From a virus, in IMG/VR virus record IMGVR_UViG_3300030430_005214, positions 26,853 to 90,852 of that record: DNA of 64,000 bases; one strand, given 5' to 3'. The notes beneath the pieces are model-generated. The model worked only from the letters and a program-made list of their open reading frames with translations, made no database searches and was not told the DNA's origin. Both the position numbers and the translations under genes were made by a program. Position 1 is the first letter of the stretch, and each line of letters starts with the position of its first letter. Of the stretch, positions 34,128-63,903 are shown in pieces.

Positions 34128-34128
34128 T

Positions 34129-34608: not shown

Positions 34609-34639
34609 TAAACAATTGTAACATGACGCTCTTTAAAAT

Positions 34640-35362: not shown

Positions 35363-35373
35363 GAGTTCGCTCC

Positions 35374-37256: not shown

Positions 37257-37258
37257 TG

Positions 37259-38107: not shown

Positions 38108-38118
38108 TTTTATTTCCT

Positions 38119-41259: not shown

Positions 41260-41260
41260 T

Positions 41261-41848: not shown

Positions 41849-41861
41849 TTTTTAATCCTCT

Positions 41862-44698: not shown

Positions 44699-45599
44699 TT
44701 TTGGCTAGCGTCTGTTGTAAAAAGTCTCTATATTTTCTAGAAACTATGTTCATATTATAATCTATATCCCAGTTGTTTTTAACTTTTTTATCAAAATTAA
44801 TCTTAGGAGGGTTATACAATTGAACCGGTTGGAAGTTCCATTCTTCTTCTTCCAAAATAACAGCGTTTAGGCCAGCAATCTCACAAGTCCCGCCGGCAGA
44901 AGAGCAGATAATTTGGCATCCAGAAGCTCGGGCATCTACAACTACATTAGGACAGTGATCCAGCCAAGCTAAATGTAAAAAATATTTTGAACGTTTATAC
45001 AAAGAAATCAAATTAGGAACAGAAACCTCACCAACATAAAAAATTCTTTCGTTTTTTTCTATTTTTTGTTCTGATTTTCCTGCAACAACAAGACAATCTT
45101 TTTTAGATGAGTGTTCTAAAAAATATCTTATGTTCTCATTTAGTCTTTTGTGGGGCCGCCAGGACGCGGCGCAAGACCAGACATTTTCAAACTTATCTAT
45201 CTTTGGATGAGACAGCGGAGATATTGTTTCTATAAAATCTGTATCGGCACCATTATGAATAACAGAAGAGTTTTTATGCTCTCCGAAATATTCTGTTGTT
45301 AATTTTTTGTTAAAATTAGATTGAAATACTACACCGGCAGAATGATGATATGTTTTTTCAATGTTTTGATTTTGTATTTTGTAAGGTTGTGATAAATTAA
45401 AATATATTCCATCTAATCTTTGAAAAAGAGGAGTTTTGCTTTGAAAATCTCTTGTTTCTATAAAACACAACCTAGCATCGATGGAGGTATTTTGATTACA
45501 ATATAAATCATTTTTTTTACCATATTTAACTAGTTTTGCAGCAAAATGGTTAGGTCCAGATGCGCTTTGCAGATTGACATTTTCTAGTTTAATATTCAT
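44661..45599 (-). CDS. family-4-like GT-B glycosyltransferase (312 aa)
   Basis: GT-B protein of group 1 type: HNGADTDFIETISP near residue 115, an AASWRPHKRLNENI acceptor loop, VGEVSVPNLISLY, then the donor side HLAWLDHCPNVVVDARASGC, where D/D replaces the more usual E-x7-E. Ends in an Asn/Lys-rich tail (ENKHSNSNKNK). The ATG at 45599 overlaps the following gene's stop as ATGA. Likely adds a sugar in an exported glycan; donor unknown. Confidence 0.7.
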   Translation of the reverse strand: MNIKLENVNLQSASGPNHFAAKLVKYGKKNDLYCNQNTSIDARLCFIETRDFQSKTPLFQRLDGIYFNLSQPYKIQNQNIEKTYHHSAGVVFQSNFNKKLTTEYFGEHKNSSVIHNGADTDFIETISPLSHPKIDKFENVWSCAASWRPHKRLNENIRYFLEHSSKKDCLVVAGKSEQKIEKNERIFYVGEVSVPNLISLYKRSKYFLHLAWLDHCPNVVVDARASGCQIICSSAGGTCEIAGLNAVILEEEEWNFQPVQLYNPPKINFDKKVKNNWDIDYNMNIVSRKYRDFLQQTLAKNENKHSNSNKNK

Positions 45600-47215
45600 A
45601 TTCTTTTATATGGTTTTTTATTTCTGATTTGAACAGCTAACTCAGATTGTTTTTTAGCTTTTATTTTATCAACACTTAATGGATTTTGTCTATTGTAAAC
45701 ATAAAGCACTTCAGGTATATAAACAGACCTTTCAGCTGACATTTCTAGTAGTGGAAGCATTATCGCCTGATCATAGGTCATTTCAAAATACTTACCATCG
45801 TTCTTAAGATCAGTATGATCTAATTTTTTCCACAGGTGATATTTAAAACTTCTTAGATGTGAAGCTCGCCAGACATCTTTTCTAAATGCATTATTCTTAA
45901 CAACCTCGGCTGGGTATTGTGAGGGTTCTACTCCTTTTTGGCCATTTGTGCTATAGACATAGCTCCCATAAGTTAAAAAGACATTTCTTTTGTACTCTTT
46001 GTTTAATTTTGACAACACTGCCGAAGATGACAACCAATCATCACCATCCATCAATATTATAACATCATCATCTTTTAAATCTTTTTTGCCTAGAACGTGA
46101 GCTATGTTACCCAACGCATATTTTTTATCTTTGTTTTCTATTAGTTCAAATCGATCGTCGCTTTTTATTAGTTTTTTAATTTTCTCACAAGAGTTATCGG
46201 TAGACATGTCATCTACTAAGTAACATTTAAAATTTGAATATTTCTGTCTAACAATGCTTTTAACACATTTCTCTATCCACTCTGCGCAGTTGTAAAACGG
46301 AACCACAAAAATAAATCTATTTTTTTCTTTAATATTTTTATTAACGACCGGCAGTGATAAATTTTTACTCGCTAGCAGCTCTACTTCATCCCAAAATATT
46401 TTAGTCCTTTGTTTAAGATGATTTAGTGTTGTTTCTCTTGTTTGAAACCATGGCTCATGTCTATGCTGAACATTGTCATTTAATATTAATTCGCAGTCTA
46501 AAAGTTTTGCCTCTATAGTCATTCTAGGGCAAGTGTCACCAGCTTTGGGAAAAAATATAATGCCTTTTGATTTTGCTAATTTTTTTAGTGTTTCTTTGTG
46601 AGTTAAGTTCCAGATCAATTCATATTTTAATTTTTTTTCATCTGCGAACTTAATTGCATCATCGACACCTTTTATCCATGAAGGAGAGTTTAGAATAAGA
46701 TACGTATCGTTTTTATTTTTTGTATCTAAAGATAATATATAATTTAATTTTTTATTCGAAAAAACAGAATTTAGTACCTTGTTGTTTTTGTCATCTAAAA
46801 ATGGAAATTTGCTTTGATAATGTAAAAGTTGATTTTTACTCATCCACCAAGTCATTTTTGAATTATTTAAAAATATTGAAACCAGCTTTCCGTGACGCTT
46901 TGTTTCACAATCACATTTGCCTTCGCTTAATTTATGTTTACCTGGAGAGCGATATTTACAATACTTGTAATCATACTCTAATATAAAGTAGTCCAAATTT
47001 TTTGCAGCATACAATAAAGCCTGTTCTGGAACATTAGAAAAATTACCAAAAATCCAAACCGCAGAGGTATTGTTTTTCATGTAATTTAATAATCTAGGAT
47101 CAGAGGATAAAATTTTATTGCAAGGAAAGTAAGAATCAACTATAATTGCTTCTGTTGTTAGTTCGGCGCCGCCTTCATACTGCTGCGCAAACATATCGGC
47201 CACAAAAAAAATCAT
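45596..47215 (-). CDS. two-domain glycosyltransferase: N-terminal GT-B-like part plus C-terminal GT2 (539 aa)
   Basis: Residues about 1-285 are GT-B-like (FFVADMFAQQYEGGAELT start; KGIIFFPKAGDTCPRMTIEA with a family-4-like donor loop). From about 293 a family-2 GT-A domain starts: FVVPFYNCAEWIEKCVKSI, YLVDDMSTDNSC, and VIILMDGDDWL, where DGDD is the metal-binding DxD. This fusion of two transferase folds could make two successive linkages. Cysteine-rich KCDCETKRHGK lies near 97-110. ATGA coupling joins it to the next gene. Confidence 0.75.
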   Translation of the reverse strand: MIFFVADMFAQQYEGGAELTTEAIIVDSYFPCNKILSSDPRLLNYMKNNTSAVWIFGNFSNVPEQALLYAAKNLDYFILEYDYKYCKYRSPGKHKLSEGKCDCETKRHGKLVSIFLNNSKMTWWMSKNQLLHYQSKFPFLDDKNNKVLNSVFSNKKLNYILSLDTKNKNDTYLILNSPSWIKGVDDAIKFADEKKLKYELIWNLTHKETLKKLAKSKGIIFFPKAGDTCPRMTIEAKLLDCELILNDNVQHRHEPWFQTRETTLNHLKQRTKIFWDEVELLASKNLSLPVVNKNIKEKNRFIFVVPFYNCAEWIEKCVKSIVRQKYSNFKCYLVDDMSTDNSCEKIKKLIKSDDRFELIENKDKKYALGNIAHVLGKKDLKDDDVIILMDGDDWLSSSAVLSKLNKEYKRNVFLTYGSYVYSTNGQKGVEPSQYPAEVVKNNAFRKDVWRASHLRSFKYHLWKKLDHTDLKNDGKYFEMTYDQAIMLPLLEMSAERSVYIPEVLYVYNRQNPLSVDKIKAKKQSELAVQIRNKKPYKRI

Positions 47216-48471
47216 GCTAATTTAGCAAATAAATCATCAATTTCTTGGTCAGAGACAGTCTCTATAAAGTACTCGTTTATAATACTATTAAATTTTTCAT
47301 ATTGATATTCTTCTTGAAAATTTTTTAGTATCCACTGCTGGAGTTTTTTAGCTTGAGATTTAAACCTACCATAATCTTTGTATACTTGCCGCAGTTTCAT
47401 TTTGTATGAGCCTTGCTGTGGATCCGCCCAAGCAGAATCTTTTTCTATAACACCTTTCCAGGCAACACCCTCCGGTATTTGATTTATATCATAATCAACT
47501 TTAGCAAAGTGAGCCTTAAGAGTTTTCTTTCCTTTTTTATTTTTTGTTGGCTTGTAAAGAAAATCTAAGTGCCCAGACCAATCAGTCGCAATCACTGGTA
47601 ATCCAGAATAGGCCGCCTCAAATAACGGCAATCCAAACCCTTCTCCATGAGTTAGACTTACTAATGCGTTAATTGATTTATCTCTGTATAGCGAATGCAT
47701 CTCTTGATCAGTTAAGTCTCCGTGAAGTAAATATATCTTGCACTTTCTATCATCATATTTTTTTACAAATCTTTTCAACTCCTTATCTAAAAAGCTGCGA
47801 TCCATAACCGATCCACCTTTTAAAAATGTTTTTATGACCAGGCCAACATTTGGGTTGTCAAAAAATTCTTCAACAAACCACTTCACTGTTGCTTTCATAT
47901 TTTTTCTTGGTCCCCATTGAGCCACAGACAAAAAATTAAACTCAGTAGGTAGATTTAAATTTAAGTCTGGTAAGTCGTCAAAAGTTTTAACGGGGTAATG
48001 AACAATGTCTATATCTTTTGTACATTGTAAGGTGCCTCTCTGTCCTGTTTTCTGGTCAATCCCTTCATAAACTGTTTTTAAAAATGTATCACGAGAGTGT
48101 TTAGATATTGTAACAACTTTATCCATCATATTGGCTTTTTCAATCCAAATTGGAGATACTTTTGTGGTTTCTATACCTGCTGTGACGCCTATGTTAATGG
48201 GAGCCATTTTTTCCCACTCGTTAGGAATAGTTACTTGAACAGACATATCAAATTGACCTTTAGCTTGTATATGAATGGCTGTTTTTTTAATTATTTCATC
48301 AAGCCAAGTCCTCTCTTCGTTGTTTTCCCAAATCCAACTTGATTTGCCCCAGTTGACGGGCAATAAGTAAACATCTAAGTTTTCTACTTCTCTTAAGGCG
48401 CGCAAAATAAAACGACAATGTTCACCATACCCTGTTCTAGTTAGGGCCGGTCCTCTAACCAACACTTTCAT
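47212..48471 (-). CDS. GT-B glycosyltransferase, family 4 (419 aa)
   Basis: Start chosen at ATG 48471 (MKVLVRGPALTRTGYGEHCR), with AAGGAGG 7 bases upstream and TAATG overlap with the previous stop; the longer frame from 48495 has no better site. Donor-side motif LTHGEGFGLPLFEAAYSGLP carries the E-x7-E signature, with VIATDWSG after it. The first 100 residues (VTIPNEWEKMAPINIGVTAG) fit the acceptor domain. Member of the 48-49.8 kb transferase pair. Confidence 0.85.
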   Translation of the reverse strand: MKVLVRGPALTRTGYGEHCRFILRALREVENLDVYLLPVNWGKSSWIWENNEERTWLDEIIKKTAIHIQAKGQFDMSVQVTIPNEWEKMAPINIGVTAGIETTKVSPIWIEKANMMDKVVTISKHSRDTFLKTVYEGIDQKTGQRGTLQCTKDIDIVHYPVKTFDDLPDLNLNLPTEFNFLSVAQWGPRKNMKATVKWFVEEFFDNPNVGLVIKTFLKGGSVMDRSFLDKELKRFVKKYDDRKCKIYLLHGDLTDQEMHSLYRDKSINALVSLTHGEGFGLPLFEAAYSGLPVIATDWSGHLDFLYKPTKNKKGKKTLKAHFAKVDYDINQIPEGVAWKGVIEKDSAWADPQQGSYKMKLRQVYKDYGRFKSQAKKLQQWILKNFQEEYQYEKFNSIINEYFIETVSDQEIDDLFAKLA

Positions 48472-49754
48472 TACGCTACCTCCTTGATAACCCATCTATT
48501 ATCATGCTTTCTCGTATCCCAAGAGCCCTCTCGCTCGTGAATTTCTAAAAATGTATCGACCCAGGTTTTACAGAAATTGTCAAAATTATAATTTTTCATA
48601 ACATGATTTCTACCGTCTAGACCCATCTTTAATCTTTCTTCTTTTGTCATATTATAGATTTTTTCCATTGCAGCTACAACGTCATCTCCATTTAATCTAT
48701 CCTCATAGATCCATGGAATTTGTTGCGAACCAATTATAGCCTTTGAAGATGGGTATACCGGAACACCAAAAGTCTTATCTCCGTCAACTACTTGTTCTTG
48801 TAATCCGCCTGTCATATTAACAATAATTGGCGTGCCACAAGAAAGGGATTCAAGAGTTGCTAAACCAAAACCCTCGGCATCAGAAATATTAATTGTGCAA
48901 TCAGCTATATTGTATATCATTGCTAATCTTTGTAAATCCACTTTTTCTTGACTAAATAAAACCTGACCGTCCTGTAGATCTAAATGCTCTACGATTGCCG
49001 CGAGGTCTTGCCCGTTTGGATCATTAACTGCCGTATGCATAATTAAGCACGCTTTGTCTCGGCCAACTTTATTTAAAAATTCATTAAACCAAAAAATAAG
49101 AGAGCCTGATTGTTTTCTTCTTGCGTTTCTATTGTTCCAAAAGAAAATAAATTTATCTGGATCATAAAAATCACCAAAAACGGCTTTTTTAAATTCTTCT
49201 ACATTTTCTTTATCTTGTTTTGTTTCAATCACTATCGGTTTAAAAACGTCACTATTAACAGCATGTGGAATATACTGAGATGTAACATCCGGTGCTACAG
49301 TTTTTACAATATCGTCAGTAACTTTTGATATTGTAGCAACAAAATCATTTGATTCATAGAATTGTTTATTGTAGGTAGGATAGGGATAATTATCCCAAAC
49401 ATGATAATAAACCATAGGCATAAGAGATCTAATTTCATTCTCCATTTCCCAAAGCCAATGCCAAAAGCGGGGGTCTGTCATAAACCATAGGACATCTGGT
49501 TTTTCTTGCCTGATCAGCGAACGGACCATTTCTTGATTTCCATATCCATCTACAGGATACATAACCCAATCATCTCCATATTGTTGTGTTTTGATTGGAT
49601 CGTAATTTGGGTGTTTGATCGCACCGCCAAATGAACGAATTTGGAACTTACCAGTTTTTAATAACGCTTCACAAATATACCTAGTTTGAGTTCCAACGCC
49701 ACTAGGACTAAGAGGCATATCACTAAGAGTGAAGACCTTAATTTTTTTATCCAT
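48471..49754 (-). CDS. GT-B glycosyltransferase, family 4 (427 aa)
   Basis: Begins IKVFTLSDMPLSPSGVGTQT, a typical GT4 start, with ISDAEGFGLATLESLSCGTP carrying the E-x7-E donor motif and FFWNNRNARRKQSGSLI, a nucleotide-binding segment. Length and motifs agree with GT4 enzymes that extend cell-surface polysaccharides. It is the first gene of the glycan island on the reading strand and shares TAATG coupling with the next transferase. Acceptor and sugar cannot be told. Confidence 0.85.
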   Translation of the reverse strand: MDKKIKVFTLSDMPLSPSGVGTQTRYICEALLKTGKFQIRSFGGAIKHPNYDPIKTQQYGDDWVMYPVDGYGNQEMVRSLIRQEKPDVLWFMTDPRFWHWLWEMENEIRSLMPMVYYHVWDNYPYPTYNKQFYESNDFVATISKVTDDIVKTVAPDVTSQYIPHAVNSDVFKPIVIETKQDKENVEEFKKAVFGDFYDPDKFIFFWNNRNARRKQSGSLIFWFNEFLNKVGRDKACLIMHTAVNDPNGQDLAAIVEHLDLQDGQVLFSQEKVDLQRLAMIYNIADCTINISDAEGFGLATLESLSCGTPIIVNMTGGLQEQVVDGDKTFGVPVYPSSKAIIGSQQIPWIYEDRLNGDDVVAAMEKIYNMTKEERLKMGLDGRNHVMKNYNFDNFCKTWVDTFLEIHEREGSWDTRKHDNRWVIKEVA

Positions 49755-51955: not shown

Positions 51956-53269
51956 TTAAAGAATTTTAGACGCTATTGTGGCCACCTTTGACCTTTCTCC
52001 CTTTCTAAGCGTTACGTGCCCAGAAATTTCGAAAGTTTTGAATTTTTCAACAGCATGAGTTAGACCGTTAGACGTCTCATCTAAATATACATTATCAATT
52101 TGTTCAATATCACCAGTTAAAACTATTTTTGTCCCCTCACCAACTCTAGTTAAAATTGTTTTTAGCTCATGAGCAGTTAGGTTTTGTGCTTCATCTATAA
52201 TGATAAAAGCATTAGCTATTGATCTACCTCTTATATAAGTTAAAGCCTCTACTTCTATTTTTCCTCGGTCCAAATATGTCTCTAGCGTAGCTTTATCATT
52301 TGCCATCAAATATTCTAAATTATCACGGATAGGAGCAACCCAAGGTGACATTTTTTCTTCCATCGTTCCTGGTAAAAACCCAATATCTCTACCCATTGGT
52401 TGAATTGGCCTAGACACCACGAGCCGGCTATACGTCTCTTTTTCTACAACTTGGCTAAGGCCGGCCGCTATTGCCATTAAGGTTTTACCACAACCAGCCT
52501 TACCCACTAACGTTACTACATTTACTTTTGGGTCTTCTAATAAATCCATAGCGAAAATCTGCTCTTTGTTTCTAGATTTTAAACCCCAAAGTCTTTTTTT
52601 ATTGCCGGGATTGAGCAATTTTAGGGGCTTCTCGTGCGATTCAAATTTTCCGAGAGCAGTCTTTTTTTCATTTTGATTTGATATCAACATTAAAAACTGA
52701 TTTGGATTTAATTGTAGTTCTTCTTCCTCAATATAAACTTCTTCTCCAGAATAAAATCTGTCAAGAACAGGTTCATCAACCAAGTGGGTAATGAAGCCAG
52801 TATAGATATTATCTGTGTCCTTTATAACTTGATCTGAATTGTAATCCTCTGTCGGGAGCCCCAAAGAGTCACACTTAACACGCATGTTAATATCTCGTGT
52901 AACCACGATTACTTTTCTTTTTGGGTTTTCATTTTTCTGGTTTAATGCAACGCTAATAATCTCATTATCAGGCACAGAAAGATCTAAATCATCTGGTATG
53001 CCCTCACGTTTGACCATTTTCACGCATATTATGCCTTTACCCTTATCTATTCTCACACCTTTAGACAAGCTACCTTTCTCTCGGAGAGCATCAAGATTGC
53101 GTATAAGCGTTCTTGCATTTGTGCCTGCTCCATCTTGTCGTTTTTTGTTATTATCTATCTCTTCTAAAACTTTTAAAGGAAGGACTATATCATTAGTACC
53201 ATAGGATCGAATACAATTTGCGTCCGTTAAACAGACGCTAGTATCAAGAATATAAATTTTTTTAGCCAT
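51956..53269 (-). CDS. phoH: PhoH-family ATPase with N-terminal PIN domain (437 aa)
   Basis: Residues 1-150 form a PIN-type ribonuclease domain (YILDTSVCLTD with D9, VLEEID, PDNEIISVAL with D101, VVTRDINMRV with D126). Then GKAGCGKT at 256-263 (Walker A), IIIDEAQ at 356-362 (Walker B) and VLTGDIEQ. This PIN-PhoH layout (PhoH2 type) is known as an RNA helicase/ribonuclease. PhoH genes are common in marine phages. The role is uncertain; RNA turnover is more likely than a phosphate-starvation role. The start has AAAGTGAG just upstream. Confidence 0.9.
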   Translation of the reverse strand: MAKKIYILDTSVCLTDANCIRSYGTNDIVLPLKVLEEIDNNKKRQDGAGTNARTLIRNLDALREKGSLSKGVRIDKGKGIICVKMVKREGIPDDLDLSVPDNEIISVALNQKNENPKRKVIVVTRDINMRVKCDSLGLPTEDYNSDQVIKDTDNIYTGFITHLVDEPVLDRFYSGEEVYIEEEELQLNPNQFLMLISNQNEKKTALGKFESHEKPLKLLNPGNKKRLWGLKSRNKEQIFAMDLLEDPKVNVVTLVGKAGCGKTLMAIAAGLSQVVEKETYSRLVVSRPIQPMGRDIGFLPGTMEEKMSPWVAPIRDNLEYLMANDKATLETYLDRGKIEVEALTYIRGRSIANAFIIIDEAQNLTAHELKTILTRVGEGTKIVLTGDIEQIDNVYLDETSNGLTHAVEKFKTFEISGHVTLRKGERSKVATIASKIL

Positions 53270-53357: not shown

Positions 53358-53404
53358 GTGTTTTTGTTTATAAAAAAGGAGAAAAGGTGAATGGCATACT
53401 TATT

Positions 53405-53412
53405 TATTTATA
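53405..53412 (-). promoter_or_regulatory. possible minus-strand late promoter toward phoH
   Basis: TATAAATA reads on the minus strand here (TATTTATA on plus at 53405-53412), pointing to phoH, whose ATG is at 53269, giving a leader of about 130 bases. It would lie inside the protease frame if that began at 53391, one reason to prefer 53451. Confidence 0.3.
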
Positions 53413-53450
53413 TGAGAGTAAAAATCTCAGAGACATCGGAGGATAAAAAA

Positions 53451-54209
53451 ATGAGTAGGGTTATGGTTAGTACCCTCGCGTTCGTTATGCTGTTTACTTT
53501 CTCTTGCGGCACGATGAATTCAAGTGTAAAAAATGATTTTCCAAGAGAAGGATTTGCATTTATTAGTAAAACAGTTCAATTAAAAAGATGCTTTGGTAAA
53601 GATAACTGCGCCACGATGGATTTACGTTCATCGGGATCTGGTTATGTTGTTAAGCTTTCTGACAAAGGCGCGTACATAGTTACTGCCGCTCACGTTTGTG
53701 ATGGTGAAAAAGGTTTGTTGGAATCAGTTGAACAAACTATTCACATGAGAGTATCAACATTATCGTTAAAAAGATATGATGCTGTTGTTCTAAAAAAAGA
53801 TCAATCAATTGACGCTTGTTTACTTTTTGCAGAAGGTTTAACTGAAGGGGTTGAAGTTATACCTTTAGCAGCAAAACCTCCCAAGAGAGGTGAAAAAGTT
53901 TATAATATAGCTGCTCCTTTGGGTATGTTTGATTATGATATGGTTCCAGTTTTTGAAGGTAGGTATGCTGGTGAAGAAGATGGACAAGATGTTTATTCTT
54001 TAGCTGCTACTTTTGGATCTTCTGGCTCTATGATTTTAAATTCTAAAGGTGAGCTAGTAGGAATGGTTCATTCTGTTTTAGTAAAATTTAGAAATATTGC
54101 TATTTCTTCACCTTATGAAAAGCTAATGAATTTTATTAGAGACGGTCTTTCTGAGGTAGTATTGGCAGAATGGGCTTGTGTTGCCCCTGGTGAGTGTCTT
54201 AAGTATTAA
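53451..54209 (+). CDS. trypsin-like serine protease lipoprotein (252 aa)
   Basis: The only complete plus-strand gene. Signal peptide MSRVMVSTLAFVMLFTFSCG (lipobox-like, lipid Cys at C19). The trypsin-fold triad is visible: IVTAAHVCDG (H81), SIDACLLF (D121), and TFGSSGSM (S191). The S1-family shape is complete but small, with no prodomain. The preferred start has CGGAGG 8 bases upstream; an in-frame ATG at 53391, also with a ribosome site, would add 20 hydrophilic residues before the signal peptide, less likely. It lies on the opposite strand to nearly all others and has its own late-type promoter. A surface protease acting on host or competing-phage proteins is a plausible role. Confidence 0.8.
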   Translation: MSRVMVSTLAFVMLFTFSCGTMNSSVKNDFPREGFAFISKTVQLKRCFGKDNCATMDLRSSGSGYVVKLSDKGAYIVTAAHVCDGEKGLLESVEQTIHMRVSTLSLKRYDAVVLKKDQSIDACLLFAEGLTEGVEVIPLAAKPPKRGEKVYNIAAPLGMFDYDMVPVFEGRYAGEEDGQDVYSLAATFGSSGSMILNSKGELVGMVHSVLVKFRNIAISSPYEKLMNFIRDGLSEVVLAEWACVAPGECLKY

Positions 54210-54811: not shown

Positions 54812-55042
54812 TTAGGGGGTTTGCGACCCCTCTTCTCTTCGATGCAAAGCAAAATCATCTAATGCGTCAGCGCAATCTAATGCTTCTGCTAGTATTGTAG
54901 TCCATTTATCAACTTCTTTTAATATATCAGTGTGTTCTCCAACCATAACAGTTTGAGTAAATAGCATATCTAGCATTGCTCTTGCTTCCTCTGCTTGTGC
55001 TTCATACTTTAATTTAGCTGCATTAAATAATTTATTATTCAT
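54812..55042 (-). CDS. small helical protein, unknown (76 aa)
   Basis: A nearly all-helical Ala/Glu-rich protein (FNAAKLKYEAQAEEARAM, then EVDKWTTILAEALDCADAL) that probably forms a short helical hairpin. No motif. It is coupled by ATGA to the helix-turn-helix gene and sits in a small-gene cluster. Confidence 0.5.
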   Translation of the reverse strand: MNNKLFNAAKLKYEAQAEEARAMLDMLFTQTVMVGEHTDILKEVDKWTTILAEALDCADALDDFALHRREEGSQTP

Positions 55043-55416
55043 ATAACCTCTTTTTCTTCTTCTTCAAAAAATGAAATTGTATTATATTTTTTAATATAGC
55101 GGTTAAACTCCATATAGTCAACCCCTAAAAATCTAGCTGCTTCTTTTTTTGTTCTTGCAATGCTTAAAGCTGTCTTTAAAAGAGCATCAGTGACTGCATG
55201 TCTAGTTAGTCTCCATATTGGAAGGCCATAAAATTTACCACACAAATACCTAGTTGATAATTCTAGCTTGATTGCAATTAAGTCTTCTAAAGAAATATTA
55301 TTAATATTATTTAAAGTATTATCAGTAATTTTCTTTTCAGACTTTAGTTTATTTATTATACTATAATTTGAATATTTTGTAACAGTATTTTTCTTTTTTT
55401 TATTTTTCCATGACAT
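55039..55416 (-). CDS. Fis-like helix-turn-helix protein (125 aa)
   Basis: The N-terminal 30 residues are Lys-rich; residues about 75-115 read VTDALLKTALSIARTKKEAA-RFLGVDYMEFNRYIKKY, a Fis/NtrC-type C-terminal helix-turn-helix (the second helix begins after the Gly). The acidic end (FFEEEEKEVI) is unusual for such proteins. It could bind DNA near its own region or regulate late expression. Other HTH types cannot be ruled out. Confidence 0.6.
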   Translation of the reverse strand: MSWKNKKKKNTVTKYSNYSIINKLKSEKKITDNTLNNINNISLEDLIAIKLELSTRYLCGKFYGLPIWRLTRHAVTDALLKTALSIARTKKEAARFLGVDYMEFNRYIKKYNTISFFEEEEKEVI

Positions 55417-55458: not shown

Positions 55459-56178
55459 TTATTTATTATAATCTGGAGATTCTGGTTCTGGTAGGGTGGG
55501 TTGAAGTTCCTCTTCAAATCTATCAAAATATAATTTAAGATTAGTTAACATATATTCTTTATATAATTTTCTATCTTCACCATCAGCCAAAGATTCGTAA
55601 GCGTCTTGAATTTGATTTTCTACTTTATTGAATGTAGTTGAGGCAAAGTTTCTACCGGTGACATTCATGCCTTCTAGATCTTGAAAAGATTTTACTTCTT
55701 CTGGCTCTTCAGGTTCTGTTGGCATATCTTGATCTCGGACTGGAATAAATTTATCTTCAACATCGATATCTAAAGCTACTTCTTCCTCAAGTTCATTTTC
55801 TTCTTGACTTCCTTCAGCTCCTGATGTAAGATCTACTGGTGCTAAAGAATTCTGAACTGCATTAAGAATATGGGCTCTAAAAGAGTCTCTTTGTTCTTTA
55901 GATGTTGTAAGTGCTTTATATGCATCTTCAACGATAGGAATAACAACTTTCAAAGTATCCTCAAGGACATTTATCCCTGTTGCTCTTTGAGGCTGCTCGT
56001 CTGGAACATCAGCACTAACTTCTTTGATGAGAGATCGAATAACACTACGAAGTCTATTCTCTTCAAGCATAACTTTTTCTTTCTTTTCAGCAAGATAGTT
56101 TTCTAGAAGACCACGGATTACTTTTCTAAAACGTTGTTCTTCTTTTAGTTCTTTTAAAAATTCATCGCGATCAATCAT
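55459..56178 (-). CDS. acidic protein with LRxxIRxLLxE helical repeats (239 aa)
   Basis: Start at ATG 56178 (MIDRDEFLKEL), with TTGGAG upstream; the frame begins earlier only with a TTG. Residues 17-29 (FRKVIRGLLENYL) and 43-54 (LRSVIRSLIKEV) are two copies of the same amphipathic helix. Residues 125-175 are highly acidic and disordered. The C-terminus is helical and ends PESPDYNK. Possibly a scaffold- or core-type protein in the head, by composition and its odd neighbours, but this is a guess. Confidence 0.55.
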   Translation of the reverse strand: MIDRDEFLKELKEEQRFRKVIRGLLENYLAEKKEKVMLEENRLRSVIRSLIKEVSADVPDEQPQRATGINVLEDTLKVVIPIVEDAYKALTTSKEQRDSFRAHILNAVQNSLAPVDLTSGAEGSQEENELEEEVALDIDVEDKFIPVRDQDMPTEPEEPEEVKSFQDLEGMNVTGRNFASTTFNKVENQIQDAYESLADGEDRKLYKEYMLTNLKLYFDRFEEELQPTLPEPESPDYNK

Positions 56179-56182
56179 TAAA

Positions 56183-58201
56183 TTACACTCCAAGTTTCTG
56201 TAATAAATAGTTTAACGCTTCATTAACTTCTTTTTCAGAAACTTTTTTACGTTTTCTTCGTTTGGCGCCAAGAGGTAAAGCATATCCCTGTACAGAGCCC
56301 CCTCCCATTGAAGATATTTCTTCTATTTCTTCTTCTTCCAAAACCTCATCGACTAACCCACGAAAGATACCCAAAAAGGGTTCATTAACCTCCTTGAGTT
56401 CTTTGTTTACCATATCTGCTATGTAGTCTGCTCTATCCTTTGACGTATCTGGTAAAAAGCGTTCTATGTTTTCATCGTTTCTTAAAGCATTTCTAAAATC
56501 AGTAGCACTTAACACTTCACCAACAGGATCAAAAGCATAGTCAAGAGGGTTTAAAACTTCTGCATCTTCAACATATTTTTGAACATTACCAGCAAAACGT
56601 TCTGCAGCATCGCCACCCTTCGTTGAAGCACCAAGAATAATCTTTGCACCTTTCATTTCTGGTTTATTACCATACTCCATAGCTGCTCTAACAGGTGAAG
56701 CAAATTCAGAGACTTGAACAACTGATTTCAATGGTGATTCAAACTCTGCAACTTCAACTTCAGCGTTCCGAACGTTCGCATCATCTAAATACAAGTTTAA
56801 TATTTTCTCAGACACTTGTGCTGTGATGCCATCTTTTTCTTTTGGACTTATAAGAATCACTACTTGATCAGCTAGCCTTGCATAATGCTCAATCATATCT
56901 AAATGGCCTCGATGCGGAGGTTTAAATTTTCCAGGTAAAATAGCGACAGTTTCGCCTTCATTTTGCTCCATAAGCATTTCCTTTACCATTTGTGGTATCT
57001 TACCTCTTCCGTACTTAAATAACCCCAAAAGTTGGTTCATTGGAGCAAAGTTTCCTGTAAACTTATACATTTGACCATTGTGTTGGAATACAAAACCTTC
57101 AACAACAGTATCAATATTATCATGATGTTTAATTTTATCGAGTTGTCGAACTAAAATATCTTGGGCTGCTTTTTTCTCTGGTCCATCATAAGTTTGAATG
57201 GCACGAATAGCTTTCTCAGTTTCATTTTTAAGTCTTTCTACTTCTGCCTCATTATCTAAAATATAAGCGCTTTTTAATCCGCGGAGGAGTTCTACAGCGA
57301 AATCATGAATGGCCATCTCAATTGGTTGCACAAGCTTGGCGATTAGAAATTTTGAATTTTTATTAAAAGCAGATATTTTTGCCTTCACTTCTTTTTCCAT
57401 CCCTCTAGCTATTTGTGAAACTGTTGGAGCACTTTTGTCCCCCAACATTCTTCTAACAAGAAGTTTAACTCGATCTTCGTCTAACTGCGGGAAATTTTCT
57501 TCGGTGTATGGTGTTAATTTATCTCTTAAATAATCATTAATGGTCATATCGCCTGAATAACCTGTACGTTGTATGCGATCTAAGGTTTTTTCAACAAATG
57601 TTTCATCTGTAATTTTATTAAGGGTAAGAAAAGCAGTTCTACGAACAGAAAAGTCTTGATCTGCTGTGGCTTCTTCAAATCTATCAACCACGCTATCTAA
57701 AAACGCTGATTCTTTTTCGTTTGCTACAACTTCTAAGCTGTTGTCTTCTTTATTATACTTCTTATGACCCATCCTATGAATATTCACTACATTTTCGTCA
57801 TAGTTAACAACATTTGGAGCAATCGGACCTTGAATCTCTGTATTATAAAATATCTCACCATTAGGTCCAAAGATCTTAGCTCTTTCTTTTTCTGAAAGCG
57901 ACTCAACAGCCTTTACGTAAGCGTTAAAAGCCGTGACATAAGCTTTTCTTGCGCTTTCGCCGCCGCGGAATTCACGGTTGATAAGATCTTCAAAGGTCAT
58001 GCCCCCACGAGACATATCACCTTTATTTCTTGCAGCACGAGGCTTACCATCGACATAACCAAGAAATATATTATAGCCGTCAGTCTTTTCTGTTCCTACG
58101 AGTTCGCCTTTGGCGGCTTTTTGTAAAATATCGGCCATTTCATTAAAGGTGAGATTACGATTATCGTAAAGGTGTGATAAGTGTCCTGCTACGCCGCCCA
58201 T
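56183..58201 (-). CDS. RNA ligase-like nucleotidyltransferase fused to NMNAT-like adenylyltransferase (672 aa)
   Basis: Residues 1-400 carry ligase/capping nucleotidyltransferase motifs: motif I EKTDGYNIF with K39, motif III FYNTEI at 118-123, motif IV VVEGFVF at 366-372, motif V QMYKFTG at 377-383. Residues 415-600 are an HxGH nucleotidylyltransferase: GKFKPPHRGHLD (H430, H433), ending with SATDFRNAL (565-573), like the ISxTxxR of NMNAT. The tail is acidic then basic (GAKRRKRKK). The two could join NMN adenylylation with nucleic-acid end joining, as in a NAD or RNA-repair system; no biochemical evidence. Starts ATG 58201. Confidence 0.7.
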   Translation of the reverse strand: MGGVAGHLSHLYDNRNLTFNEMADILQKAAKGELVGTEKTDGYNIFLGYVDGKPRAARNKGDMSRGGMTFEDLINREFRGGESARKAYVTAFNAYVKAVESLSEKERAKIFGPNGEIFYNTEIQGPIAPNVVNYDENVVNIHRMGHKKYNKEDNSLEVVANEKESAFLDSVVDRFEEATADQDFSVRRTAFLTLNKITDETFVEKTLDRIQRTGYSGDMTINDYLRDKLTPYTEENFPQLDEDRVKLLVRRMLGDKSAPTVSQIARGMEKEVKAKISAFNKNSKFLIAKLVQPIEMAIHDFAVELLRGLKSAYILDNEAEVERLKNETEKAIRAIQTYDGPEKKAAQDILVRQLDKIKHHDNIDTVVEGFVFQHNGQMYKFTGNFAPMNQLLGLFKYGRGKIPQMVKEMLMEQNEGETVAILPGKFKPPHRGHLDMIEHYARLADQVVILISPKEKDGITAQVSEKILNLYLDDANVRNAEVEVAEFESPLKSVVQVSEFASPVRAAMEYGNKPEMKGAKIILGASTKGGDAAERFAGNVQKYVEDAEVLNPLDYAFDPVGEVLSATDFRNALRNDENIERFLPDTSKDRADYIADMVNKELKEVNEPFLGIFRGLVDEVLEEEEIEEISSMGGGSVQGYALPLGAKRRKRKKVSEKEVNEALNYLLQKLGV

Positions 58202-58205
58202 AGAT

Positions 58206-58457
58206 TTATTTTCCTTCTTCTAATATTCTTACTTGTTCTTCTAGAAGTGAGATTTTGTTTTCGAGAGTTCTAACAACTCTTTTTATTTCAAGTAAATTTT
58301 TACGAGCAACTGATAGTTGTCTACTTTCCCTTTGACTTTTTGGTCGTACTTCGTCTAAGATACGAAGAACAGACTCGACGTAAGCACGAGCAGTAGGATT
58401 GCTTTTAACTTCTCCTATCAAAAAGTCTCTGGTCATTTTTCTTAGATCAGTTTTCAT
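58206..58457 (-). CDS. coiled-coil small protein, unknown (83 aa)
   Basis: A basic N-terminal half (DLRKMTRDFLIGEV) and a strong C-terminal coiled coil (RKNLLEIKRVVRTLENKISL-LEEQVRIL). It follows the metallopeptidase by TAATG coupling and precedes the ligase-NMNAT gene by 4 bases. No motif for function. Confidence 0.55.
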   Translation of the reverse strand: MKTDLRKMTRDFLIGEVKSNPTARAYVESVLRILDEVRPKSQRESRQLSVARKNLLEIKRVVRTLENKISLLEEQVRILEEGK

Positions 58458-59188
58458 TAGTTGTCCTTGGATATTTCTTCTAGAATATCACGAACAGCAT
58501 CACGAAGCGCTGCCTCGTCTAGATCTTCAAGAACTTCTTCTTTAGCCTCTGTTGACATCGGATGCACTTCTTCCAATGCGCCTTCTTTTTCTTCCTCATC
58601 TAATTCTTCAGGCGCCTCTTCGAGTTGAGCGGTGGCATAGTCTGCTTTAGTTAAACTAGCAGTGCCTTGGGCCTCATTTAGAAATGATTTTTCTTTTGGT
58701 TTATATCCCCATTTATCCATAAGCATTTCGCCAAATTCTTTATTTCTCCAGTTCTTGTAAGACATTTTCTGTTCTCCTTTGGTGTCTTTATCTTTATAAT
58801 TAGTTTCTTCAAGTCGATTCTTCAAGCGATCTTCAAAATCACGAAAACACATATTTCCTTTTTCATACGCTTCGCGTTCCATTTCTCTCATATGTGGATC
58901 TTTTTGAGCATAACCAGGTCCAGTTACCGCACTAGTTAGATCTCCCCTTTCATTCTGTAAATGATGAACTAACTCGTGAGCAAGAGATCGAAGACAATCT
59001 TTCATATGTCTACCCGTAGTGTAAACCGTAATTGATTCTTCTTCTGGATCATAATGAGCAGTACTGCCAAAAGGCTTCATACTATTTTCTTTATCTTGTG
59101 CGAAAATTATGGTGGGTTTATTTTGAAGCTTATACCGCTGGTGAAAAAACTCTAACAAATCATTAGCGTATGTTTTTATATTGTTCAT
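58457..59188 (-). CDS. putative HExxH zinc metallopeptidase with acidic LRxxVRxILEE tail (243 aa)
   Basis: HELVHH at 71-76 (HExxH) lies in a helix (CLRSLAHELVHHLQNERG), with an ERE segment at 104-106 that may supply the third zinc ligand. Residues 170-243 are acidic and end in LRDAVRDILEEI (228-239), a copy of the helix found in the protein at 55459. No signal peptide, so it acts inside the cell or the virion. The zinc motif is clear, but the substrate is unknown. Confidence 0.65.
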   Translation of the reverse strand: MNNIKTYANDLLEFFHQRYKLQNKPTIIFAQDKENSMKPFGSTAHYDPEEESITVYTTGRHMKDCLRSLAHELVHHLQNERGDLTSAVTGPGYAQKDPHMREMEREAYEKGNMCFRDFEDRLKNRLEETNYKDKDTKGEQKMSYKNWRNKEFGEMLMDKWGYKPKEKSFLNEAQGTASLTKADYATAQLEEAPEELDEEEKEGALEEVHPMSTEAKEEVLEDLDEAALRDAVRDILEEISKDN

Positions 59189-59211: not shown

Positions 59212-60210
59212 TTAGATCTCATGAGGGGACCGAGAAAAAACAACAGACCTAACAAAAGGTACATTGTCCAACTTTCGTTTAATATACTCTTCCATATGTT
59301 TAGCATCAATGAAACGTTTGAGAGTGCTGTTTTCATTAATAGCAAAGTGACCGACATTTTCTAGAACATCCATTTTATTAAAAACAATATGCGTTGCTCC
59401 ATTAATATTAATCGCTTTTTGCAAAAAGTTTAAATTCATCCAGTTAACTTGTCTTTTTCTTCCTGTGGTAGCACCATATTCTTGACCCTCTTCTTGTATT
59501 TTTGTAAATACATCACCTTGAGGTTGAAAGGCTTTAGATCCAACATAAGTCTCATAAGATTTAGCTACACCATAAATATTTCTTACAGTTTGTGGCGGAA
59601 CACCGTTCATTAGTGCCGCCGCAGAAATGCAATTGGATGATGTGACATAAGGATAAGAGCCCCAATCAATATCCAGTCCAAAGCCTTGAGCGCCCTCGAA
59701 AAGAATAATTGGATTACCGCATCTTTCATGTAGTTCTTCATAAAGGTCTATTAGATAAGGACGAAGCTCAGAAACATCTTCGGCTCTAACACCAGTTCTG
59801 GCAAACTTATCTCTATAAGCGGGACCGTTACCTCGTTTAGTCGTGCCTATTTTTGTTTCTCTTGCTTCTTCTTCAATGTGATTTTGCGTAATAATGTGAG
59901 CATTTTTAGCGATAAATACAAGACCATTTGCGTCAATACCGCCTTCTTTTAATTCTTCAATCTCTTTAAAAAATTGTTCCACGTTGACAACACACCCCGG
60001 ACCAATAATGGACCGAATGCCAAAAAATACACCGGCAGGTATGTGATGAGTAACAAATTTTTTCCCTCTATGAAAGATAGTGTGGCCGGCGTTACAACCG
60101 CCATTATATCTGATAACATGCGTATATTCTCCTGTTCTACAAAGGTGATGTGTAACTTTTCCTTTTCCACAGTCACCATACTGTAAATCTACAACAATAT
60201 CTGAAATCAT
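59212..60210 (-). CDS. purA: compact adenylosuccinate synthetase-like enzyme (332 aa)
   Basis: Motifs: GDCGKGK at residues 12-18 (P-loop; D13 kept, E14 replaced by Cys), GGCNAGHT (H43), KIGTTKRGNGPAYRDK, YPYVTSSN, GATTGRKRQVNW and FNKMDVLENVG. It makes adenylosuccinate from IMP, GTP and Asp. At 332 aa it is about 100 shorter than bacterial PurA but near archaeal PurA and phage PurZ. PurZ lacks the catalytic Asp, as I recall, so D13 argues for PurA. Start is ATG 60210 with GGAGGGG upstream; the longer frame begins with TTG. Confidence 0.8.
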   Translation of the reverse strand: MISDIVVDLQYGDCGKGKVTHHLCRTGEYTHVIRYNGGCNAGHTIFHRGKKFVTHHIPAGVFFGIRSIIGPGCVVNVEQFFKEIEELKEGGIDANGLVFIAKNAHIITQNHIEEEARETKIGTTKRGNGPAYRDKFARTGVRAEDVSELRPYLIDLYEELHERCGNPIILFEGAQGFGLDIDWGSYPYVTSSNCISAAALMNGVPPQTVRNIYGVAKSYETYVGSKAFQPQGDVFTKIQEEGQEYGATTGRKRQVNWMNLNFLQKAININGATHIVFNKMDVLENVGHFAINENSTLKRFIDAKHMEEYIKRKLDNVPFVRSVVFSRSPHEI

Positions 60211-60232
60211 AAACCCCTCCAAGTGAGGTTCT

Positions 60233-60264: not shown

Positions 60265-62133
60265 TTAGTTTTCAGCGCAGGCTGTTTCATCAAGGATTTC
60301 AAGAAGGTTGCCGTACATCTTTTCTGCGGTGGGAACAAGATCAAATTTCTTTGCTTTTGAGAAAGAATCAACAATATTATCCCAGTAAAGGTTTCCAAAA
60401 CTGGCAGTGAAAACATAGAAATTAAACTCTGGCGCTGCTTGCATAGAAGATATAACATCACTTTGCTCTATCTTTGGAACAAGATAACTTTGAGGTTCTT
60501 CGTCTGTGAAGAGTATTATAACTCTTTTAGTATTTTCTCTCCACTCTATATTCCAGTTTTCTTTTTCAGGCTCTGAAACGTTAATTCCACCCCAACCTTC
60601 AAACCAAGCAGCAGAATTAACGTCAAACGTCCCACCTCCTATTAGACTTTGTAAAGAAAGGTAAATAGCGTCTAAGCTTTGCTCATCTCCACCATCCATG
60701 GATGTTGTATCAATGTTAGCAAAAGATCCCATAAAACTTTGAAAATCAGTTAGGTTGATTTCTATTTTTAATTTTTCAACGTTTTTTGTTAAGCCTGCGT
60801 CATACTCATCAACAGCAATCAGTACTAAACCCCATTTTATAATTTCAGAATCACTATAATGGACAGCGAACTGACTTAGCGCCGAAAGAACTGCATTAAT
60901 GTCATTGAGCATAGAACCTGACATATCGACAATGAGAAGAATATCGGTAGGTTCAAGTTCTTTTTCCGTTATTCCATCACAGTTTGTATCTTCACCATTA
61001 CAAATATCTTCGTCCATTGGAACAACTTCATCCATACACAACTCCGGCATAAAGGTACCGTTTTCAAAATCACTACCCCATATGCCTTCTTTACAATAAA
61101 AGTTTCCAGGCAAACATATACCGATACCAAGTGTTTCAGGCGGCCCACTATAGCAAATAGAAAATAAATTTTCATCAACTAACTGATTACAGTTATCGTC
61201 ATGATTATTACACTCTTCTGATATCACTTTTCCTAGATATTGATCGCATTTTTCACCTTCTTCTAATATCTCGGGAAACCAGTGACAAGATGCAAGACAA
61301 TCAGTCATTTTGAAACTTTTGCATTTATCGTCCTCACACTCACAAGTTTTGTACCCCTCTCCACAAACAAGCGGAGGCTCAGTGCAAGGAACTAATATTC
61401 CAACATCTTTTTCAGTACAGAAACATTCTATATCTTCATCAACAAGTCCATCACAATCATTGTCCAAGCCGTCGCAGATTTCATCAAAAGGTTGTTTTGC
61501 GGTGCACAACCATTGGCCTTGGATGCAATATTCTAGATCATCTTCACAAGCAGTTGAACAAGCTTGAACTAAATCTTCATCTGTTAGCCCATCGCAATCA
61601 TTATCAACATTATCACAAGTTTCAGGAGGAACAGGACCACAAACTCCACAGGCGTTTAGCTGTCCTTCATCAATTTCACCATCGCAATCATTATCAATGC
61701 CGTCACAAATTTCTTCGGTGCAGTTAACAACACACTCAGTATATTGAATTAAACCCTTAACACAAACTTTATCTTGAATTCCTGGTTCGCCTTCTTCATT
61801 CAAACATGGCGCATCTTTTTCAATTAAATACTGAGTTGGATTACATTCAAGTTGTTGTTCACACTCGCCTTGAAAAACTATAGTGTTTGGTTCATCACAT
61901 TCATTGACACAAATTTGTTTTCGCCAAACTTCACTTAAATCTTCACAAAAGTACCAGTCGCATTTTACACACGGATCTTGCCATATAGAATACGTGTCTT
62001 CTTCAACTACAATATCAATAACATCTTTGACATCGGGAACTGTAGGCACAGGACTAGCAGCGACTGGTTCTTTTTTATCGGAACAGGAGGATAACAATAT
62101 TGTACTAATAAGAAGAAATATCTTCATCTTCAT
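60265..62133 (-). CDS. lipoprotein with MopE-like DNDCDG repeats and a VWA domain (622 aa)
   Basis: Signal peptide MKMKIFLLISTILLSSC with lipobox L-S-S-C17 and an Asp/Glu-poor Pro linker. Five Cys-rich repeats match the MopE/putative metal-binding pattern: 142-156 (ICDGIDNDCDGEIDE), 172-186, 219-233, 307-321 and a weaker one at 377-391. The VWA domain (about 396-615) has a MIDAS motif DMSGS (D403, S405, S407) and FTDEEP (D543). Such proteins are common in Myxococcota-type genomes as surface proteins. No strong ribosome site is seen; ATG 62127 is an alternative. In a phage, an acquired host-surface gene is likely. Confidence 0.85.
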   Translation of the reverse strand: MKMKIFLLISTILLSSCSDKKEPVAASPVPTVPDVKDVIDIVVEEDTYSIWQDPCVKCDWYFCEDLSEVWRKQICVNECDEPNTIVFQGECEQQLECNPTQYLIEKDAPCLNEEGEPGIQDKVCVKGLIQYTECVVNCTEEICDGIDNDCDGEIDEGQLNACGVCGPVPPETCDNVDNDCDGLTDEDLVQACSTACEDDLEYCIQGQWLCTAKQPFDEICDGLDNDCDGLVDEDIECFCTEKDVGILVPCTEPPLVCGEGYKTCECEDDKCKSFKMTDCLASCHWFPEILEEGEKCDQYLGKVISEECNNHDDNCNQLVDENLFSICYSGPPETLGIGICLPGNFYCKEGIWGSDFENGTFMPELCMDEVVPMDEDICNGEDTNCDGITEKELEPTDILLIVDMSGSMLNDINAVLSALSQFAVHYSDSEIIKWGLVLIAVDEYDAGLTKNVEKLKIEINLTDFQSFMGSFANIDTTSMDGGDEQSLDAIYLSLQSLIGGGTFDVNSAAWFEGWGGINVSEPEKENWNIEWRENTKRVIILFTDEEPQSYLVPKIEQSDVISSMQAAPEFNFYVFTASFGNLYWDNIVDSFSKAKKFDLVPTAEKMYGNLLEILDETACAEN

Positions 62134-62742: not shown

Positions 62743-63903
62743 TTACTTTTCTTCGGCGGCTTCCTCCAAGCTACCGCCAAAACCAGGTGGTGCTGATTTT
62801 GCTCTATCATATGATGGCTTAGTCATTCCTGGTGAAACATATTTGTTACCGCCCTTTCCGATCAGGCGTATTTTCATTTTTCTATAATTTTTCTTAACTG
62901 CTTTTTGGAACGGTTCATTTTGTTCCTTTTGCATTCTTTTCGTTTTTCGCTTTGACGCTTCTTTCCTTTTTTTTGCGTAATCAAATGCCTTCTTAAGTCT
63001 TTTCTTAACTTTTGGATCTTTCGCATTTTGATATGCCGCCCTTGCTCTCTGATGTATGAGATTTATTATTTGTGATTGTCTTTTGTGAGACTTTGATTTA
63101 AACGACGCTTTTGATAAAGTATCTTTGATATCTTGAACGGTTCTAAACTTTACACTTACAGTATCTTTTGGGTTTTCGTCTGTGTAAAGTCTTCTGGTTG
63201 AGCCCTTTGGTTTTTTACCGGTCCCCTTTTTAGGATCTCGTTTCTTTTTTTCTTCTATACCATGTTCGACGCCTTCGCCAACGTTTCTGCTGATAAAGAT
63301 GGCTTTCGCTTGTTTTTCTGCAGCTTTTTTTGTTTTATGAGTTCCCCTTACTTTACCTTTCTTATCAACGTATACATATTTATCGCCGCGTTTTAAAACT
63401 TTTTCTTCTATCTCAACTGATTCGTTTTTTCTCTCGCCTTTTTTGGAACGAGTTTTTTGATTTTTACAAAACTGCTTCATTGTGAAGCCTTTTGGGTTGT
63501 CGCACTTCTTGGCTCGTTTTTTTCTTTCCGCTTTGGAAAACTTTTCGTTTAAGCCACCAAAAAGGTATGTCTCAAAGTCATATTTTCCACCATAAATGTC
63601 TGAAAGTACGATTCGTCCAAAATCCCTGATACCCGTATCGATATCGATATAATCTTCTTCGTGTAAAGAATATACCGCTTCGCGAATCTCTGGTGAATTC
63701 ATATCAATTTTATCATACTGTTCATCGAAAACATTTTTCAAAACTGATAACTGGGCTGGGGTGAAGTCGCTTTCTTTGTAATAAGGCTCACGTTCAGAAT
63801 CAAAATCATCTTCGTCTTGCTGTTCTTGCAGACCGTGAGGTTCCATATAGGGATGGTCTTTAAGATACTTTGCCATTTTTGGTGAGACTTTAAACTTGAT
63901 CAC
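62743..63903 (-). CDS. Lys-rich basic protein, possibly DNA-binding or virion-packaged (386 aa)
   Basis: The first 130 residues are acidic (QQDEDDFDSEREPYY) and fairly ordered (PAQLSVLKNVFDEQY). From about 130 on it is highly basic with KKAAEKQAKA, KKGTGKKPKGSTRR and KKRKEASKRKTKRMQKE, ending SAPPGFGGSLEEAAEEK. It could condense DNA or be packaged in the head. The start is GTG at 63903, overlapping the next gene's TGA as GTGA. No enzymatic motif seen. Confidence 0.55.
   Translation of the reverse strand: MIKFKVSPKMAKYLKDHPYMEPHGLQEQQDEDDFDSEREPYYKESDFTPAQLSVLKNVFDEQYDKIDMNSPEIREAVYSLHEEDYIDIDTGIRDFGRIVLSDIYGGKYDFETYLFGGLNEKFSKAERKKRAKKCDNPKGFTMKQFCKNQKTRSKKGERKNESVEIEEKVLKRGDKYVYVDKKGKVRGTHKTKKAAEKQAKAIFISRNVGEGVEHGIEEKKKRDPKKGTGKKPKGSTRRLYTDENPKDTVSVKFRTVQDIKDTLSKASFKSKSHKRQSQIINLIHQRARAAYQNAKDPKVKKRLKKAFDYAKKRKEASKRKTKRMQKEQNEPFQKAVKKNYRKMKIRLIGKGGNKYVSPGMTKPSYDRAKSAPPGFGGSLEEAAEEK

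Follow-up and report, generated by a model that had tools for sequence, protein, structure and literature searches.

A phage protein joining an RNA-ligase-type domain to an HxGH adenylyltransferase domain, and the exchange of either half at a conserved locus

The window analysed here is a 64,000-nucleotide stretch of viral DNA (IMG/VR record IMGVR_UViG_3300030430_005214, positions 26,853 to 90,852 of that record). On its minus strand it encodes a 672-aa protein in which an N-terminal domain of the RNA-ligase type is followed by an adenylyltransferase domain of the HxGH class. This two-enzyme protein is real, conserved and widespread; the pairing of its two domains is not due to chance, and each half can be seen replaced by a different type at one conserved locus. 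We tentatively read it, at not quite even chances, as a bifunctional nucleotidyltransferase from a marine phage related to T4, which would combine RNA-end repair with the synthesis of a dinucleotide cofactor and might be delivered with the virion.

Two nucleotidyltransferase-type domains in one chain

The gene was taken from the open reading frame (ORF) list, and its parts were delimited by AlphaFold2 (AF2) models, VIA structure searches, profile matches and residue conservation among 42 aligned homologs of the ligase-type domain:

56183..58201, minus strand: fusion gene, 672 aa, two domains (ORF list, ATG start)
57002..58201, minus strand: RNA-ligase-type domain, residues 1-400 (AF2 domain model, VIA)
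58172..58183, minus strand: HLSH, H7-H10, N-terminal to motif I (H10 in 42/42, H7 in 40/42)
58070..58090, minus strand: motif I, EKTDGYN, residues 38-44, with K39 the candidate adenylated lysine (E38, K39, D41, G42 in 42/42)
58028..58030, minus strand: R58, aligned to T4 Rnl2 R55 (42/42, hhalign)
57824..57844, minus strand: motif III, NTEIQGP, residues 120-126 (E122 in 42/42; set against the NMEYVAP-type stretch of T4 Rnl1)
57086..57100, minus strand: motif IV, EGFVF, residues 368-372, within VVEGFVF starting at V366 (E368, G369, F372 in 42/42)
57053..57067, minus strand: motif V-like YKFTG, residues 379-383, KxT with a single lysine (K380, T382, G383 in 42/42)
56390..56956, minus strand: HxGH adenylyltransferase domain, residues 416-604 (PF01467, VIA)
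56903..56914, minus strand: HRGH, residues 430-433 (from the sequence)
56492..56509, minus strand: SATDFR, residues 565-570, second motif of the HxGH domain (from the sequence)
56186..56338, minus strand: acidic, glycine-rich and basic tail, residues 622-672, with a helix at its end (AF2 model)

The start codon is preceded about 10 bases upstream by the purine-rich GAAGGA; four bases separate the ORF from the upstream gene, and the gene listed downstream overlaps it. The HxGH domain is the sole Pfam match over its cut-off in the 672-aa protein (PF01467, 26.5 bits against 21). The full-length AF2 model, built from 52 sequences, has a mean predicted local distance difference test score (pLDDT) of 82.6 and a predicted template modelling score (pTM) of 0.64; in the tail, pLDDT is low at residues 622-653 and a helix is modelled at 656-669. 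Several proteins with other ligase-like modules carry a comparable tail.

A first-pass annotation of this DNA, made from its letters alone, had placed ligase motifs I, III, IV and V in the first 400 residues, and all of them are present: K39, D41, G42, R58, E122, E368, G369 and K380 are invariant across the 42 aligned homologs, including the KxDG lysine of motif I and the motif III and IV acids of the covalent nucleotidyltransferase superfamily. Modelled alone (AF2, residues 1-412, 42 sequences; pLDDT 88.2, pTM 0.86), this half has the predicted adenylation-domain fold of the same superfamily, and all 50 VIA rows listed, with Z from 9.9 to 5.4, belong to the ligase/capping superfamily. The top match is the Naegleria RNA ligase (Z 9.9, root-mean-square deviation (rmsd) 4.0, 189 residues aligned), with further matches to T4 Rnl1 (9.4), T4 Rnl2 (8.9), REL1 (8.8) and Trl1 (8.3), and with lower values for DNA ligases (at most 7.1, Pmar-Lig highest) and a capping enzyme (5.8). 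The comparison with the two T4 enzymes that the first-pass annotation proposed as a check places the modelled N-terminal half in the fold named there. In a Foldseek search the first 19 PDB rows are RNA ligases, except for the Aquifex entry 3qwu, which is titled putative DNA ligase. An hhalign alignment to T4 Rnl2 pairs K39 and R58 with K35 and R55, motif I facing EKIHGTN. Among Pfam families, PF09414 (RNA_ligase) matches the 42 domain members most often (25 of the 42 at E <= 1); its best E is 0.0031, and the rows listed do not reach the family cut-off. A search of this phage record with PF09414 gave no match.

T4 RNA ligases 1 and 2, the Naegleria RNA ligase and fungal Trl1 share with the window protein the N-terminal fold (Z 9.9 to 8.3), motifs I, III and IV and the adenylated-lysine arrangement, whereas the window protein differs from them in its single motif V lysine, in the N-terminal HxxH, in the HxGH fusion and in an insert ahead of motif IV, which is large and mostly helical in the models (about residues 190-365). 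Membership of the classical Rnl1 or Rnl2 families was not accepted, as motif V does not have their KxK.

The HRGH and SATDFR motifs first noted in the second part of the protein are indeed there, at residues 430-433 and 565-570. In VIA, residues 416-604 match CoaD with Z 17.2 (rmsd 2.5, 152 aligned) and the NMN adenylyltransferase (NMNAT) 2r5w, an NMNAT/ADPR pyrophosphatase, with Z 15.2 (rmsd 2.6, 159 aligned). Profile score and predicted fold together place the domain in the PF01467 family, and the general model TIGR00125 is passed with 34 bits against a cut-off of 27.7. The best curated subfamily model is CoaD TIGR01510, whose 41.6 bits lie below the cut-off of 103.3; the NMNAT-type models come next among the specific ones, with no more than 23 bits (best 22.8 against a cut-off of 127). 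Thus, the HxGH fold of what had been called an 'NMNAT-like' domain stands and the NMNAT label does not, CoaD being the best model and no equivalog cut-off being passed. Assignments as a true NMNAT (NadD, NadM, NadR) and as a true CoaD were both set aside, each scoring below its equivalog cut-offs. For the relatives P0002 and P0003 the NMNAT models match best, far under the cut-off. The domain shares the HxGH fold and the HRGH and SxTxxR motifs with CoaD and NadD/NadM/NadR, and differs from them in reaching no equivalog cut-off, in its fusion to a ligase-type domain and in lacking RGxR, which we take to be a CoaD motif and which is absent from the tested stretch in 97 of 97 HxGH domains examined. 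KVP40 NatV, a bifunctional NMNAT/Nudix protein, likewise joins a phage HxGH adenylyltransferase to a second enzyme, there a Nudix hydrolase and here a ligase-type domain. Predicted structure and invariant residues lend good support to the ligase-type and HxGH identities of the two halves.

Near-constant pairing and exchange of halves

A whole-protein scan of IMG/VR returned 23 relatives, and a scan with the alignment of the ligase domain found relatives on at least 576 viral contigs, the best 80 of which were kept; the same search of prokaryote contigs gave six. Pairing was counted in the loci from ligase-guided searches only, which avoids circularity, with an HxGH pattern that admits GAFKPPH and with the window protein and three annotated records (L025, L027, L028) left out. 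These loci hold 99 distinct ligase-domain ORFs, 58 complete and 41 incomplete. The HxGH domain lies in the same chain in 56 of the 58 complete ORFs, before the ligase domain in 38 and after it in 18; of the remaining two, one has the HxGH domain in the adjacent gene (L029) and the other is a 244-aa fragment (L114). The incomplete ORFs, nine of which have the HxGH motif, were excluded from the ratio. The same loci contain 225 further ORFs that reach 300 aa, and among these only the L029 neighbour has the motif. In Microcystis phage Mel-JY01 the order of the domains is reversed.

This search for the same domain pairing, which the first-pass annotation had suggested, makes a functional link likely between the halves, whose active-site residues are conserved, because the pairing recurs so often. 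Chance or artefact as a source of the motifs is dismissed on the same two grounds, conservation in 42 of 42 homologs and recurrent pairing. The statement that no enzyme of this arrangement had been characterised holds within the reach of our searches of open-licence literature, which turned up neither such an enzyme nor a published description of the pairing; both folds are old, and their near-obligate pairing is undescribed within that reach, yet common.

The gene is part of a cassette with the order metallopeptidase gene, 83-aa gene, ligase-like plus HxGH gene, 244-aa gene and 125-aa gene, in which members may be missing at a given locus. Neighbours were counted in 190 loci, some of which are overlapping copies of one contig, so that the counts are not independent:

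59212..60222, minus strand: adenylosuccinate synthetase of the PurA/PurZ kind (PF00709 1.8e-83, phrog_1211; 31 loci)
58457..59188, minus strand: metallopeptidase-like gene with HELVHH, cassette member (matches in 73 loci)
58206..58457, minus strand: 83-aa gene directly upstream, cassette member (matches in 43 loci)
55459..56193, minus strand: 244-aa gene directly downstream, overlapping (matches in 65 loci)
55039..55416, minus strand: 125-aa gene, cassette neighbour (matches in 58 loci)

In L010 (1094-4006) a protein of the window type continues in frame through the 244-aa neighbour to a length of 971 aa; this neighbour can thus belong to the same chain.

Within the clade of the window protein the ligase half is constant, and HxGH domains of other types are present in L019 and L022. 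An HxGH-guided scan found at least 545 relatives, the best 80 of which were kept. The same HxGH type stands behind DUF6267 (PF19782) in L135 and L139-L141 (L141 match 5.9e-97); in L133 and L177 it follows a third family of ligase-like modules, termed family C here. The flanking genes are unchanged where DUF6267 or family C replaces the ligase half. Family C is homologous to the window ligase domain (hhalign 98.7%, E 1.9e-16). DUF6267 was rejected as a detectable homolog of it (hhalign E 0.44) and is ligase-like by motifs and locus only: HLxH, KWDGAP, EGxV and KxVxR are invariant in six of six aligned proteins (the fourth residue after KWDGA excepted), KWDGAP, EG[YF]V and VK[FL]VDR being taken as the ligase-like ones. 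An HxxH motif is also found in the other ligase-like families of the same locus (alignments A9, A10). In L180 (5995-9615), L171, L176 and L187 a single chain opens with the HxGH domain, closes with a ligase-like domain of family C and includes a homolog of the window gene 62743-63903; the L180 chain also has a metallopeptidase-like HELEH motif.

An unfused version occurs in T4-like cyanophages. In Syn19, S-RSM4 and S-SZBM1 the HxGH gene comes directly after the DUF6267 gene, and when 25 of 469 DUF6267 records were compared with 60 of 532 HxGH records, the two matches lay on the same strand and within about 510 bases in all six records common to both lists. The cyanophage DUF6267 gene and the adjacent cytidylyltransferase genes (T4-GC 71, 190) resemble the window system in that a gene ligase-like by motif stands beside an HxGH gene, and L141 has both fused, within the cassette that is also found in the window; the cyanophage pair differs in consisting of separate genes and in the lack of profile homology between DUF6267 and the window ligase domain. 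Motifs and gene order together suggest that cyanophage DUF6267, with 469 records, is likewise a ligase-like enzyme. No paper on DUF6267 was found in the open-licence literature. A DUF6267 search of this phage record gave no match, and its control was silent too, which makes it uninformative.

Certain relatives carry additional domains. One 2428-aa ORF (L030) adds a P-loop kinase, a CCA/poly(A)-polymerase nucleotidyltransferase (PolyA_pol) and an HD domain; among six more large ORFs chosen for Pfam, a kinase-type match is present in five and PolyA_pol in one (L112); L087 combines a zinc protease domain with what looks by eye like a Pol-beta-type nucleotidyltransferase, and L027 has a ParB-like domain. 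With at least two disparate enzyme domains per phage chain (two in the window protein, more in L030, L087 and L180), these resemble the polyvalent proteins of Iyer et al. 2017 (PMC5512222): unrelated enzyme domains share a chain, and relatives add metallopeptidase, Pol-beta and ParB-like partners. In the part of that paper available, RNA ligase is mentioned, in three occurrences, only as not associating with 2H domains. The 'NMNAT' of Flavobacterium phage immuto (QQO92100.1) combines the same HxGH type with a homolog of the neighbouring metallopeptidase in a single chain, and differs in that its N-terminus is, by eye, a Pol-beta-type nucleotidyltransferase and not a ligase-type domain; a relative of this protein in L144 gives a weak PF18765 match.

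Possible functions of the fusion

In the reading we favour, the N-terminal half would be a divergent RNA-ligase-type enzyme that loads AMP onto K39 and moves it to a 5'-phosphate end, with RNA as the likeliest substrate; this end would then be sealed or left adenylated. The HxGH half would carry out the ATP-dependent synthesis of a dinucleotide cofactor such as NAD+, dephospho-CoA or something similar, and both activities would be under selection to stay together. The protein would be made late and possibly packaged, and would probably act early upon cell entry, repairing RNA and cofactor damage caused by host defence. We infer RNA repair with the most confidence, cofactor synthesis with less and virion delivery with the least. 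An RNA-end role gains indirect support from the CCA/poly(A)-type nucleotidyltransferase, HD or P-loop kinase domains in the chains of some relatives; CCA-adding and Pol-beta nucleotidyltransferases are expected beside RNA ligases in RNA repair, according to the excerpt available of PMC7824862. If the ligase half does act on RNA, these phages would possess a system for repair or for the tagging of ends that belongs to none of the Rnl1, Rnl2 and RtcB families. From these assignments, many phage proteins that bear the labels 'hypothetical' or 'cytidyltransferase' also gain an initial suggestion as to their function.

Early entry with the virion is proposed by analogy with polyvalent proteins and with the virion-borne HxGH homologs of cyanophages. 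In virions of S-SZBM1, mass spectrometry detected the HxGH protein S-SZBM1_140 together with the product of the next gene downstream, _139 (PMC9146016), and the cytidylyltransferase ORF154 is present in S-CREM2 virions, as given in the accessible text of PMC10665884. The phage record of the window encodes a T4-type prohead protease (PF03420, E 8.7e-30). The HxGH proteins of Syn19 and S-SZBM1 start with MKKFSAFLNEA and MRFRQFIIEA, which we take to resemble the T4 capsid-targeting sequence; the window protein has no such start, nor was any capsid-targeting tag found on it, so that its own delivery is something we infer from these homologs. An amphipathic N-terminal helix pattern, chosen post hoc, fits 4 of the 109 ORFs of the record against a mean of 0.2 and a maximum of 2 in 500 shuffles; the window protein is not among the four. 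In L195 (972-9586) and L196 (1377-1793) a helix like MKITKxxLKxIIxEEL stands at the start of several genes that lie upstream of the cassette and of one next to the prohead protease; this helix might be a capsid-targeting tag of this phage group. A search for a T4-type major capsid gene with PF07068 gave no match in the record, its control being silent too.

Several points weigh against a repair and cofactor enzyme carried by the virion. The catalytic roles of all members are predictions from sequence and models. For the ligase half, a PDB sequence search gave no credible match (the best rows are unrelated helical proteins), the Foldseek PDB search returned no match at E <= 0.001, and the hhalign matches are weak both to Rnl2 (E 0.0012, probability 19.5) and to Rnl1 (E 0.11, probability 0.5, with motifs I and III aligned). 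Strand sealing may be impaired, because motif V has KxT in place of the KxK that is invariant in 10 Rnl2 and 14 Rnl1 sequences. Similarly, activity may be lower in 42 of the 82 distinct HxGH domains of ligase ORFs, because GxHH there replaces HxGH. For the HxGH half, none of the curated specific models passes its equivalog cut-off. No nicotinamide phosphoribosyltransferase (PF04095) was found in the phage record, which may be a fragment, in a search whose controls matched, and no tRNA gene was found in the phage DNA searched. The DUF6267 partner S-SZBM1_141 is not in the S-SZBM1 virion table as available from PMC9146016, on which ground DUF6267 was rejected as a virion protein, and in the accessible text of PMC10665884 the authors allow that such enzymes may be contaminants of the virion preparation.

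The rival that survives best, though we hold it rather unlikely, is a polyvalent chain without chemical coupling, in which two independent effectors would be joined for late synthesis and joint packaging. The long relatives do vary in their domains (kinase, CCA-type nucleotidyltransferase, HD, zinc protease), as do polyvalent proteins in the available part of PMC5512222, and the HxGH domain also occurs in chains with a Pol-beta nucleotidyltransferase and a metallopeptidase in which no ligase domain was detected (L144, immuto). However, the ligase/HxGH pair is near constant (56/58) while the other domains vary, and at a single locus three types of ligase-like module have the same HxGH type as partner, which speaks for a specific partnership. 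Somewhat less probable still is that the ligase-like half is no ligase, being instead an enzyme that adenylates a protein or small molecule, or a non-catalytic binding domain. The KxT of motif V, the weak profile match to true ligases and the large helical insert fit such a role; set against them are the lysine, arginine and acidic residues conserved in 42 of 42 homologs and the fold matches of the model, where RNA ligases rank above DNA ligases and capping enzymes.

We consider it improbable that the HxGH half is a true NMNAT restoring NAD+ after attack by a host NADase while the ligase half heals tRNA. The HxGH and SxTxxR motifs, the 2r5w match and the NMNAT models nearest to P0002 and P0003 would suit this, as would the proposal, in the passages available of PMC9503650, that phages restore NAD+ by enzymes of the HIGH superfamily; on the other side, CoaD is best both by curated model and by fold, no NAPRTase family is found in the record, and the clade contains more than one HxGH type. 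The first-pass annotation had linked ligation with NAD synthesis. The joined domains, the conserved active sites and a likely functional link are retained from that proposal, whereas NAD synthesis is not sustained and is rated as possible, because CoaD is nearest, no equivalog cut-off is passed, PF04095 was not found in the record and HxGH types differ among clade members. Relief of NAD depletion and healing of tRNA accordingly stay hypotheses.

It is more doubtful again that the two halves act on one pathway, with AMP from NAD+ (or ATP) going onto RNA 5' ends and the HxGH half regenerating the dinucleotide or converting the end, which would make this very widespread unit a virion-carried machine for making or clearing RNA 5' caps after transcription. 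If the halves were coupled, it would be a candidate post-transcriptional NAD-type capping enzyme, a kind that, according to a 2021 review (PMC8131947), was still undescribed.

Least probable is NMN recycling, in which the ligase half would take AMP from NAD+ and free NMN, from which the HxGH half would remake NAD+ using ATP: this would account for near-obligate pairing in both orders, but no NMN-binding domain was identified, the closest folds are ATP-dependent RNA ligases and no specific curated model of the HxGH half passes its cut-off. In NAD+-dependent ligases the NMN-binding domain is N-terminal to the adenylation domain, and the conserved HxxH of the window protein lies on that same side of motif I.

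Other genes of the window and a chromosomal locus

Upstream of the cassette, a gene at 60265-62133 encodes what is, by eye, a lipoprotein-like protein with repeated CDGxDNDCDG motifs resembling calcium sites and a DMSGS stretch like that of von Willebrand A domains; it is unusual for a phage and is kept upstream of the cassette in many loci. On the other side, a trypsin-like protease (PF13365 1.1e-13) is encoded at 53391-54209 on the plus strand among minus-strand genes, and a gene near the cassette, at 51956-53269, has PhoH and PIN domains, predicted as an RNA helicase/RNase pair. The stretch 32459-49754 holds a cluster of sugar genes, comprising an epimerase, aminotransferases, glycosyltransferases and a methyltransferase. 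Outside viral records, the cassette was seen in the chromosome of a WOR-3 metagenome-assembled genome (L116 5034-9759), where it follows masked or unknown bases and lies between host-like genes; it may be what is left of a prophage, or else a viral contig placed there by mis-scaffolding.

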